DNA from: Candidatus Kaiserbacteria bacterium RIFCSPHIGHO2_01_FULL_54_36
GTDB taxonomy: Bacteria > Patescibacteriota > Minisyncoccia > Phycocordibacterales > UBA2100
Reading direction: 5' to 3'
DNA length: 45,821 nt
NCBI GenBank assembly: GCA_001781105.1
Contig: MFKV01000004.1
Coordinates: forward strand, 1 to 45,821
Both the position numbers and the translations under genes were made by a program. This document shows positions 2,421 through 18,852 of the stretch, in pieces. The notes under the pieces are model-generated. The model had not been told where the DNA came from and did not search any database. It saw nothing but the letters and a program-made list of their open reading frames with translations. Numbering within the stretch: the first letter of the stretch is position 1; the number at the start of each line of letters is the position of its first letter.

Positions 2421-3218
2421 CTATAGATCAAGCTCTAAAAGGGTAGGGCAATGGTCGGATCCGAAGACTTCGGGGTAGATCTTTGAGGCTTTTACCTTCG
2501 ATTTGAGGCTCTCGCTTACAAACCAGTAGTCTATCCGCCAGCCTATATTGCGCGCACGAGCGTTGGCGAAGTGGGTCCACCAGGTGTAGTGCCCGTTGCC
2601 TTTCGTAAAAAGGCGAAATGTATCCACAAATCCCGCTTTTATGATGGTGTCAATGCCCTCGCGCTCCTCTTTGGTAAAGCCATGCTCTCCTTCGTTGGCC
2701 TTTGGATTGGCTAGATCGTCAGGGGTATGGGCCACATTGAGATCTCCAGTGAAAATGACAGGTTTCTGCTTTTCGAGACGCTTCACAAATTCCAGAAATG
2801 CGGGGTCCCACTGCTTGTGGCGCAGCGAAAGGCGGCTCAGATCGGGCTTGGAGTTGGGCGTGTAGACGTTGACCAAGAAAAACGTCTCAAATTCGGCGGC
2901 AATGACGCGCCCCTCTTCATTTGGATCTCCGTACCCGTCTTTGAGCTTGTACTTCTTGAGGATCTCTTCCGGAAAGCCGAAAATAAGGCTCAAAGGCTTG
3001 ATTTTTGAGAAGATGGCAGTACCGGAGTATCCCTTGCGACCCTTAGAGGAATTCCAGTATTCCTCATACTCAGGGAGGTCAACTTCCGACTGATGCTCCT
3101 CTGCCTTGGTCTCCTGGAGGCACACGATATCTGGTTTCACCTTTTCGAGGAAGGGGACGAGTAGATCTTTGCGGTGGATGCTGCGGATGCCATTTACATT
3201 CCAAGAGACGAGTTTCAT
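2421..3218 (-). CDS. xth: Exodeoxyribonuclease III / AP endonuclease
   Basis: 265 aa, the normal length for the ExoIII/ExoA family of metal-dependent repair nucleases that cut at abasic sites and degrade one strand of duplex DNA. The active-site blocks are all present: NVNGIRS (8-14), LQETKAE with the metal-binding Glu36, TGDLNVAH with Asp159 and Asn161, WRIDYWF near 228-233, and GSDHCP (253-258) with the catalytic Asp-His pair. Its ATG overlaps the stop of the upstream GIY-YIG gene as ATGA, so translation now depends on coupling. Removing the element at 3218-3494 would put this same ATG exactly 6 nt behind the -10 TGCTATCGT, which suggests that exoA was originally a leaderless gene. Confidence 0.95.
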   Translation of the reverse strand: MKLVSWNVNGIRSIHRKDLLVPFLEKVKPDIVCLQETKAEEHQSEVDLPEYEEYWNSSKGRKGYSGTAIFSKIKPLSLIFGFPEEILKKYKLKDGYGDPNEEGRVIAAEFETFFLVNVYTPNSKPDLSRLSLRHKQWDPAFLEFVKRLEKQKPVIFTGDLNVAHTPDDLANPKANEGEHGFTKEEREGIDTIIKAGFVDTFRLFTKGNGHYTWWTHFANARARNIGWRIDYWFVSESLKSKVKASKIYPEVFGSDHCPTLLELDL

Positions 3219-3499
3219 CCCGTTAGAGATAGGAAGCGTTTCATACGATTCTGTAGGTAACGTTTACCCATGCCAGATTTAAGAAATAATTCTCTCGACC
3301 GTGCATCACCCTCGTTCCTGCACATCTCGTAGTATATCAACTCAAGCTTGCCGCGATGCTTGGTCGAGGAAACCTCACCGTCAGTATGCTGTTTGAAACG
3401 CTTCCGTAGATCACCTGTCGAACCTGTGTACCACTTACCATCCCGCTTACTTCGTAAAACGTAGGTATACCAACCTTTGTCATCTCTAACGGGATTCAT
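3215..3499 (-). CDS. GIY-YIG endonuclease carried by a palindromic element
   Basis: This 94-aa single-domain GIY-YIG nuclease has the signature pair as YTY (11-13) and YTG (24-26). Arg32 lies in DLRKRF, His38 follows, and the catalytic Glu70 lies in SRELFLKSG, so the active site looks intact. Such proteins resemble the small UvrC-N/YhbQ-like group. The unusual feature is its ends: MNPVRD at the N-terminus and SLTG at the C-terminus are translated from the two halves of a perfect inverted repeat. The ORF therefore fills the insertion element 3218-3494 exactly. The start codon sits 6 nt after -10 TGCTATCGT. The stop overlaps the exoA start. A role in moving or homing the element is inference. 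Confidence 0.88.
   Translation of the reverse strand: MNPVRDDKGWYTYVLRSKRDGKWYTGSTGDLRKRFKQHTDGEVSSTKHRGKLELIYYEMCRNEGDARSRELFLKSGMGKRYLQNRMKRFLSLTG
3218..3494 (-). mobile_element. Palindromic element E1 with GIY-YIG ORF
   Basis: The 277-bp unit is bounded by perfect 13-bp terminal inverted repeats (TCCCGTTAGAGAT at 3218-3230 and its complement at 3482-3494). It is flanked by identical 4-bp sequences TTCA (3214-3217 and 3495-3498), the expected target duplication. It lies after the first base of the former exoA start codon. The terminal A of the element re-creates an ATG for exoA. Confidence 0.82.
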
Positions 3500-3505
3500 G
3501 CGACC

Positions 3506-3514
3506 ACGATAGCA
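3506..3514 (-). promoter_or_regulatory. Extended -10 for GIY-YIG/exoA
   Basis: Minus-strand TGCTATCGT, an extended -10, ends 6 nt before the ATG at 3499. It lies outside element E1, so it probably drove exoA before the insertion. Confidence 0.65.
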
Positions 3515-3524
3515 CGCGGGTTCA

Positions 3525-3651
3525 CCCCGTTAGAAATAGCCCGCCCCAGCCCTTCGGGCGCGCAAGCCCCGTTAGAGGTAAGAATGCAAAGCGTTCTGGC
3601 GGCGAAGCCGCACCTCTAACGGGGCAAGCGCGGGCGCGATTTCTCACGGGG
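3525..3651 (-). mobile_element. Palindromic element E2 (non-autonomous)
   Basis: This 127-bp unit has 13-bp ends CCCCGTTAGAAAT (3525-3537) and ATTTCTCACGGGG (3639-3651), one mismatch, and perfect TTCA duplications (3521-3524, 3652-3655). On the minus strand a GTG (3656) lies 6 nt behind -10 TATGAT (3663-3668). It opens a 44-codon frame (3522-3656) that begins MNPVRN and ends LFLTG, the same termini pattern as the GIY-YIG protein but with no nuclease domain. It hosts the nested element E4. Confidence 0.75.
3567..3624 (-). mobile_element. Palindromic element E4 nested in E2
   Basis: The 58-bp unit has perfect 13-bp inverted repeats CCCCGTTAGAGGT (3567-3579) and ACCTCTAACGGGG (3612-3624), with perfect 4-bp duplications CAAG (3563-3566, 3625-3628). 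It interrupts E2, so it arrived later. The interior holds a GC-rich GCGGCTTCGCCGC hairpin. Confidence 0.78.
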
Positions 3652-3662
3652 TTCACGAAATC

Positions 3663-3668
3663 ATCATA
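3663..3668 (-). promoter_or_regulatory. -10 box in front of E2
   Basis: Minus-strand TATGAT ends 6 nt before a GTG at 3656, the same spacing as at the leaderless genes of this window. It would drive the E2 reading frame and may be an upstream promoter of the exoA unit. Confidence 0.45.
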
Positions 3669-3753
3669 CTCATTGTAATAGGATGTAATACGTAAGTGGC
3701 TATATCGTCTTACTAGTAGCGGAGGATTATTAATCTAAATCCTACGTACGTAT

Positions 3754-3966
3754 ATGAAAAATCCAATTTCGGGAAATCAGATGCATCTCTTCAGTGCCCC
3801 GCGCGAGCACGGCTCTCGCGAGTGGAGTACTTTCGATGTTGTCCGAGGCGATCACGCAGGCGCATATCAGGTGCTCACGCCACGCAAACACGAAACCCCC
3901 CGCTACCCCAACATCCTTCACATCACCCGTCTCCCACGCCACCTCACACCTAAATTCAGCAGCTAA
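3754..3966 (+). CDS. Small hypothetical protein (70 aa)
   Basis: A short frame of 70 codons, rich in His, Arg and Pro, with no recognisable motif. Support comes from context only: it is followed 18 bp later by the best intrinsic terminator of this part of the window. A GGAGG lies about 30 nt upstream of the ATG inside an AGGATT/AATCCT inverted repeat, too far to serve as a normal ribosome site. The locus could equally be a short non-coding transcript ending at the terminator. Confidence 0.3.
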   Translation: MKNPISGNQMHLFSAPREHGSREWSTFDVVRGDHAGAYQVLTPRKHETPRYPNILHITRLPRHLTPKFSS

Positions 3967-18078: not shown

Positions 18079-18852
18079 ATGTCAAAAAGCACTGATGAAA
18101 AAACACAGACTGACTTGTATAGGCGCCTTGAGGAGGTCGGCCTTTCTCAAAAAGAGGCGCGGGTGTATATGGCATTGCTTCCATATAGAGATATCGGTTC
18201 AAGTAAACTCATTCGTGCGACCGGACTACATGGGCAGTTTGTTTATGATTCATTGCAAAGATTGGAGGAACTTGGATTGGCGAGACATGTAATACAAAAC
18301 GGGCGAAAGAAATTTAGCGCAAGTACGCCGAAAAGAATTCTATCGTTATTGGACGAGAAACGACTGCGCTTCCAAAATATCCTCATGCAATTGGAGGAGA
18401 AGTTCTCCGGCCAGCATGAGCAGGATTTTGAGGTGTTGCAAGGCGAGGAAGCGTTTGTTGCATACCAACTTTCTTTCATCGAATCAACGCCGGAGAATGG
18501 AGTCATTGATGTTATTAGTGGACCGAACGATCGGTACTTCCAGATTCTCGATTCAGAAGGTGCTGCTGATGAGTACGAGCGCAAGCGATCGAAAAAAAAC
18601 ATAGCGATCCGATACATAGGAGCAAAGTCCCAAGCAGAAAAATTCAACAAATGGGAAAAAGATCGACCATTGTGGACATATAAAATTTTTCCAGGACTCT
18701 CTACCGGTCTCGTTGATATCAGTATCTGGCCGCATGCAGTTATGTTCGTTACCTTTGGCAATCCACTTCTATCGTTCGTTCTTCTTAGTAAGGAGGTGGC
18801 TGACGGGTACCGGGAGTTCTTCGAAGCGCTCTGGAATCTTTCGAAGAAGTGA
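18079..18852 (+). CDS. TrmB-family transcriptional regulator
   Basis: 257 aa. The N-terminal winged helix follows the family pattern: LEEVGLSQKEARVYMALLPYRDIGSSKLIRATGLHGQFVYDSLQRLEELGL, then a wing NGRKKFSASTPKRIL. A coiled helix (LLDEKRLRFQNILMQLEEKF) links it to a C-terminal effector domain with the VDISIWPHAVMFVTF beta pattern. The paralogue at 5303 shares the plan. Effector unknown. It is transcribed away from the AlpA/sigma4 gene across a 113-bp region with a palindromic operator placed to regulate both. pnp follows after 121 bp on the same strand. Confidence 0.87.
   Translation: MSKSTDEKTQTDLYRRLEEVGLSQKEARVYMALLPYRDIGSSKLIRATGLHGQFVYDSLQRLEELGLARHVIQNGRKKFSASTPKRILSLLDEKRLRFQNILMQLEEKFSGQHEQDFEVLQGEEAFVAYQLSFIESTPENGVIDVISGPNDRYFQILDSEGAADEYERKRSKKNIAIRYIGAKSQAEKFNKWEKDRPLWTYKIFPGLSTGLVDISIWPHAVMFVTFGNPLLSFVLLSKEVADGYREFFEALWNLSKK

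Follow-up and report, generated by a model that had tools for sequence, protein, structure and literature searches.

A 127-bp unit upstream of an exonuclease III-like gene in Candidatus Kaiserbacteria bacterium RIFCSPHIGHO2_01_FULL_54_36 probably represents a non-autonomous copy from a family of minimal mobile elements in which a GIY-YIG nuclease cuts the target and small units are moved in trans, a reading to which we assign a probability of roughly two in three. The units form a real and mobile family. Their inverted ends, 4-bp duplications, insertion-site pattern, rebuilt start signals and multiplicity, together with a coding unit that is open from end to end, can be read from the window (the whole stretch of 45,821 nucleotides analysed here) and from the genomes compared with it.

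The unit, termed E2, has 13-bp ends that read CCCCGTTAGAAAT at 3525-3537 and, inverted with one mismatch, ATTTCTCACGGGG at 3639-3651, and TTCA flanks it on both sides. On the minus strand the adjoining sequence is TATGAT-GATTTC-GTGAA, where the TGAA duplication begins right behind the first G of the GTG (3656-3654) that was hit. The initial annotation had described the 127-bp unit with its one-mismatch end motif and TTCA duplications, the GTG 6 nt behind TATGAT, an insertion after the first base of the start codon, and a 44-codon frame that crosses the unit to a TGA in the far duplication; each of these features is present in the sequence. The features of E2 are listed below.

3525-3651, minus strand: E2, a composite non-autonomous unit of 127 bp with 13-bp inverted ends (one mismatch), from sequence
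3521-3524: left copy of the 4-bp TTCA target duplication of E2, from sequence
3652-3655: right copy of the TTCA duplication (TGAA of GTGAA on the minus strand), from sequence
3522-3656, minus strand: 44-codon open frame from the GTG to the TGA of the far TTCA/TGAA duplication, open at chance level as judged by shuffles
3663-3668, minus strand: TATGAT, a putative -10 box 6 nt before the GTG of E2, with a leaderless-type spacing that is enriched at insertion sites
3567-3624: 58-bp unit nested within E2, with a 13-bp stem and two hairpin arms (fold z = -7.2)
3563-3566: left copy of the CAAG duplication of the nested unit, which forms the loop in one hairpin arm of the outer unit, from sequence and fold
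3625-3628: right copy of the CAAG duplication, from sequence

E2 consists of two units, the 58-bp unit being inserted in one of a 65-bp type, a composite nature that was absent from the initial annotation. The nested unit reads CCCCGTTAGAGGT..ACCTCTAACGGGG with perfect 13-bp ends. A genome-wide search showed that positions 18077-18151 of contig C23 (G000) match E2 in two pieces, and an uninterrupted 65-bp relative of the outer unit lies there at 18081-18145, flanked by TTGA. This relative contains GCGCGCAAGCGCGGGC, where E2 instead has GCGCGCAAG, the 58 bp and CAAGCGCGGGC. Because the C23 unit is uninterrupted and CAAG occurs twice in E2, the inner unit was inserted with a 4-bp duplication and C23 represents the natural empty site. 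Composites with the inner unit in this same CAAG loop occur at other loci in two other genomes (L115 in G026 with a TGAA duplication, and L046 in G029 with TCAA), which points either to movement of the composite as a single unit or to a hot spot at the loop. E2 shares its 13-bp end type, its kind of duplication and its position at a start codon with the nuclease-carrying unit described below, which supports its reading as a non-autonomous, MITE-like relative of that unit. The initial annotation had proposed a non-autonomous derivative of that unit, which holds as regards the relationship but not as regards an origin by deletion, as the interior of E2 belongs to a 65-68-bp hairpin family present in at least 8 genomes, with the nested unit added. 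A comparison of E2 with plasmids gave no DNA match.

The frame that crosses E2, which starts at the GTG and stays open as far as the TGA of the distal duplication, might suggest a shortened nuclease gene kept open for a mini peptide MNPVRN...LTG, and the initial annotation had regarded the open frame as a retained feature. We consider this very improbable. The frame of E2 is open in 42% of shuffles, and 9 of 47 small start-codon units are open as compared with 9.3 +/- 2.1 in dinucleotide shuffles (P = 0.65), so that the proposed excess of open frames is not seen and selection for a mini peptide in the small units is rejected. The sister composite L115 is 128 bp long and falls in another frame class, and the homologues of the interior of E2 are hairpin units that lack a conserved frame, and not the nuclease. 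The peptide does resemble the nuclease at its start and end (MNPVR...LTG), but this likeness is due solely to the 13-bp ends, translated as NPVR and ..LTG.

The coding counterpart, E1, lies in the same window and carries a TTCA duplication as E2 does. Its features, and the host gene that it has hit, are as follows.

3218-3494, minus strand: E1, a 277-bp nuclease-coding unit of the same family as E2, with perfect 13-bp inverted ends TCCCGTTAGAGAT, from sequence
3214-3217: TTCA duplication of E1 (TGAA of the exonuclease III start codon), from sequence
3495-3498: TTCA duplication of E1 that supplies the nuclease start codon ATGAA, from sequence
3215-3499, minus strand: GIY-YIG nuclease of 94 aa with start and stop codons within the duplicated target (PF01541, E = 1.4e-15)
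2421-3218, minus strand: exonuclease III-like protein (Exo_endo_phos), host gene hit by E1 (PF03372, E = 1.4e-32; empty-site orthologs)

The nuclease ATG overlaps one duplication and its TGA the other; this TGA also shares bases with the ATG of the exonuclease III gene (ATGA). Membership of the GIY-YIG superfamily is indicated by the PF01541 match, by the fold and by the catalytic-type residues Y13, Y24, G26, R34 and E70, which are invariant in 10 proteins. A structure model of moderate quality (pLDDT 75.6, built from ten sequences) has 1ZG2 as its best PDB match, and the nearest solved folds are those of UPF0213 and the branched-DNA nuclease SLX1, a likeness that fits a structure-directed enzyme. 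These single-domain GIY-YIG proteins (1ZG2, 1YWL, 7CQ2) are the best hits by sequence and fold, and UPF0213 is also of the same size class as the E1 nuclease. The UPF0213 and SLX1 records differ in that they are not described as mobile, SLX1 being a housekeeping nuclease.

GIY-YIG is a homing-endonuclease domain, and the E1 nuclease has a weak match to the group I intron endonuclease model TIGR01453 (E = 3e-4, far below the cut-off). Homing, in which double-strand-break repair would carry the nuclease solely from allele to allele of a single site, is nevertheless highly unlikely. The units occur in many unrelated genes and with target duplications, as opposed to the single conserved site and the intron or intein carrier of a homing system, and an Rfam search of 3100-3800 gave no match and no intron. 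The GIY-YIG homing endonucleases I-TevI and I-BmoI and the Penelope-like elements likewise tie this domain to DNA mobility, but the present system has no intron, accessory DNA-binding domain or reverse transcriptase and hits many unrelated target genes. A 2024 survey of CPR rRNA genes also places GIY-YIG proteins within non-intron insertions that are seemingly outside a homing context (PMC11270868).

The end motif is far more frequent than expected. The window contains 8 end motifs (at most 2 mismatches) against 2.6 expected, a number never reached in 100 shuffles, and the genome-wide matches are 11 + 12 versus 2 + 0 for a reversed control. Of 60 relatives, 29 contain the two-ended pattern, as do 31 of 287 genomes sampled across the phylum; the reversed control pattern is present in none of these genomes. 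The initial annotation had made its reading depend on duplications at other copies, a point on which that reading stands. Exact 4-bp duplications flank 130 of 210 distinct units, as compared with 28.9 expected and a maximum of 47 in 1000 shuffles of the full set, and are absent in approximately 38% of units. In a first set, 61 of 102 units had a 4-bp duplication (8.4 expected) and only 2 a 5-bp duplication, which sets the length of the duplication at exactly four.

The two ends of a unit also agree with each other copy by copy. Among nuclease-size units they match in 85 of 86 at position 1 and in 84 of 86 at position 13 (47 and 40 expected), and the agreement within each unit extends over positions 1-13, including the variable positions 1, 11, 12 and 13, and falls to chance level from position 14. 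The ends of the small units co-vary likewise over positions 1-13. Such co-variation would be expected if the two ends of a unit must pair with each other, presumably as a hairpin or cruciform.

The strong hairpins of the units (z = -4.8 to -8.6) and their location in gene leaders would also suit static palindromes, such as REP sequences, terminators or regulatory leader hairpins, that spread by recombination or arose by convergent evolution. Insertion is strongly preferred over this explanation, to which we give little credence, as it leaves the 4-bp duplications, the empty orthologous sites, the nesting with duplication and the near-identical copies in unrelated flanks without a cause. REP sequences lack target duplications. 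The REP/REPIN systems with their RAYT transposases (Y1 HUH) resemble the present family in having dispersed short palindromes and a single small nuclease gene as suspected mover; they differ in that the present units have exact 4-bp duplications and, in place of a linked Y1 HUH transposase, a nuclease of family PF01541.

The genome census was done by pattern searches and on sequence stretches. In G003 it identified 49 units, 34 of them with a duplication, and besides a few unpaired ends no unit longer than the 277-bp nuclease unit. Same-genus genomes with a nuclease unit contain more small units (mean 5.5 versus 1.2, p = 0.009). Small units are also found without a resident E1-type nuclease in G006, G014 and G017, where they may be old insertions.

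Several observations concern the diversity of these units. The 77-82 bp units of G003 (for example L098, L101 and L103) form a large subfamily that keeps AAGCTTCG...TATGGCTTC beside the ends, while the middle approximately 45 bp diverges freely at nearly constant length. Units of 60-70 bp that share the 13-bp ends of the family and carry two near-perfect hairpin arms, a three-way-junction shape, occur in the distant CPR genomes G134, G218, G269 and G305. At L161 and L234 nuclease units stand directly behind the end of another unit; as insertion rebuilds the target, units can stack.

To analyse the targets, we took out each unit and one duplication and thereby rebuilt the empty site. The duplication falls on NTG in 51 of 55 nuclease-size and 50 of 75 small units, and among these the rebuilt site is the start of a long ORF in 44 of 51 and 40 of 50 cases, respectively, as compared with 274 of 2482 control RTGAA sites (p ~1e-28 or less). 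A TANNNT box lies 3-9 nt upstream of 43 of 93 insertion sites versus 147 of 667 control starts, which gives many targets the appearance of leaderless starts. TTGA is the second target; it reads TTGAC in 11 of 12 units and has a -10 box 16-17 nt downstream in 9 of 12, as compared with 5.6% of control TTGA (p = 1e-9), and these insertions sit in -35 boxes. Most units thus lie either on a start codon or within a -35 box. Since units end in A or G, ATG or GTG is rebuilt before the host gene, and TTGAC is rebuilt at -35 boxes. Host genes in the genome of the window itself include those for ribosomal proteins L31 and L3, named from protein sequence. Survivorship, in which only harmless insertions remain, may sharpen this target pattern and is inseparable from target choice by sequence alone. 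Some units (L090, L097, L098, L103, L115, L118, L124) have a length of 2 mod 3 and can extend the host N-terminus in frame; these extensions read NPVRN...SNG-type and are a source of odd N-termini in CPR annotation.

The exonuclease III orthologs of the genus (G002, G003, G010, G017 and others) have a leaderless promoter, TATCGT-N6/7-ATGAAA, without E1. A different 67-bp unit (GTCTGATGATTTGATGAAC, compare GTATGATGATTTCGTGAAC) occupies the very site of E2 in G006, and a different unit occupies the site of E1 in G012. Independent hits on the same base step indicate that insertion is directed by sequence or structure.

To evaluate the distribution of the nuclease units, we scanned 84,980 GTDB species with an alignment of ten nucleases, which gave 456 relatives, and took on the best 80. 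Both ends are present in 79 of these 80. The units are 277 bp (32 units) or 280 bp (20 units) long within a range of 274-291 bp, an exact duplication flanks 50 of the 79, including 45 that lie at a start codon, and in 48 of the 79 the nuclease stop lies within the second duplication. The frame is broken or shifted in several copies, as expected of mobile DNA, and copies 82-93% identical to each other have unrelated surroundings, among them a pair at two loci of G047 (88%). Paceibacteria make up most of the hosts among these best 80 of 456; the others are Microgenomates, Doudnabacteria, Omnitrophota and individual MAGs from further phyla. Nuclease units also occur in MAGs labelled TA06, Planctomycetes, Thermodesulfovibrionia, Desulfobacteraceae and Syntrophaceae (L184, L207, L209, L212, L224, L228), and such occurrences outside the CPR reflect either transfer or binning errors. 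In viral contigs 0 of 54 pattern matches for the nuclease were confirmed. The only clearly coding type of unit found is the approximately 277-bp GIY-YIG nuclease gene, which is coding along its full length.

Further GIY-YIG genes in the same genomes are bordered by inverted repeats in 21 of 63 cases versus 1 of 187 mismatched (shuffled) flank pairs. These repeats have a different sequence, mostly beginning CCC, and the end type follows the clade in the nuclease tree; several such units have 4-bp duplications TATG, TGTG, TGAG or TTGA. Inverted-repeat units of 277-320 bp from other clades (L069, L077, L078, L080, L081, L084, L288, L294, L295, L301, L304) have the ends CCCGCACACTAA.., CCCGGTAGTACAACTA, CCTGTACACACGAAATGACC and ACCCYGTTAAATCC, with some TATG or TGTG duplications at the start codon. 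No small units with one of these other end types, CCCGCACACTA, were found in 60 genomes, which runs counter to a prediction of the trans-mobilisation model; trans-mobilisation is thus suggested for one end type only.

These features suggest the following mechanism, in which mobilisation of the units by the GIY-YIG nuclease is the central inferred step. The coding form E1 is a gene that forms its own transposon, approximately 277 bp and coding throughout, taking promoter and start codon from the host gene at its front and, in canonical copies, its stop from the TGA of the second duplication. The nuclease would recognise a unit via a hairpin or cruciform of the 13-bp ends and make a staggered 4-nt cut at the target. 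GIY-YIG enzymes are nucleases, for which strand joining would need host enzymes, and these would join and fill in, leaving the duplication. The duplication rebuilds the host signal, as the A or G at the unit end with TGAA gives ATG or GTG, or else TTGAC is restored. E2 and other small units would be mobilised in trans. E2 itself may have arisen when the Y-shaped 58-bp unit entered the CAAG hairpin loop of a 65-bp-type unit, the composite then moving as one to the GTGAA site upstream of the exonuclease III gene.

It is also possible, though we think it unlikely, that an unrelated transposase moves the units in trans and that the GIY-YIG gene is one cargo filling a unit. The small units seem to tolerate any sequence between their ends, some genomes have units without an E1-type nuclease, and we know of no precedent for a GIY-YIG enzyme as sole mover. 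Against this, there is no transposase-sized unit among the 49 of G003, and the same cargo with its cognate ends is present in 79 of the 80 best of 456 relatives. End type tracks nuclease clade, with several other GIY-YIG clades arranged alike between other ends, and the retention of active-site residues, or of a frame up to the last base, would be surprising in a cargo.

The system has the body plan of transposons and MITEs, namely inverted ends, a duplication, and coding and non-coding copies. As with MITEs and their parent insertion sequences, short non-autonomous units have terminal inverted repeats (13 bp, co-varying) and duplications of fixed size (4 bp), and a coding unit has the same ends. 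The differences lie in a coding unit of approximately 277 bp whose only product is a 94-aa GIY-YIG protein, with no recognised transposase of the DDE, HUH, serine or tyrosine type between the ends, in small-unit interiors that are mostly unrelated to the coding unit, in ends that are complementary copy by copy, and in insertion at start codons and -35 boxes. To our knowledge the enzyme, size and targets of the units match no family known or found, and an autonomous transposable element of approximately 277 bp would be smaller than any we know of. On balance, the elements would constitute a new class of transposable element with a single-domain GIY-YIG nuclease as its sole enzyme and a coding form that is wholly coding, aimed at leaderless starts and -35 boxes, borrowing promoter, start and stop, returning a working start codon and moving structured non-coding units in trans. 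The system would be categorically new on this best explanation and less so if a conventional transposase is the mover. A literature search, with preprints and most subscription papers outside its reach, found no description of such elements, and an earlier description may exist.

The rRNA gene survey also reports many unexplained ORF-less insertions of less than 200 bp in CPR bacteria (PMC11270868). These resemble the present elements in host group, in GIY-YIG ORFs within non-introns and in short ORF-less insertions; they differ in lying in rRNA genes, and the available part of that survey makes no mention of inverted ends, of duplications or of start codons as targets. For both kinds of insertion the present family offers a candidate explanation.

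If the nuclease is the mover, these elements represent a new solution to transposition that relies on one 94-aa nuclease domain and no known transposase chemistry, and a gene without its own promoter, start codon or stop codon. The rebuilding of targeted start codons and -35 boxes would explain how the elements survive in tiny, gene-dense CPR genomes, even at the genes for L31 and L3. The elements could explain why small GIY-YIG genes are so numerous in CPR bacteria, which is testable on existing sequences, and possibly also the non-intron insertions in their rRNA genes, and the annotation of start codons and N-termini in CPR genomes would change with them.
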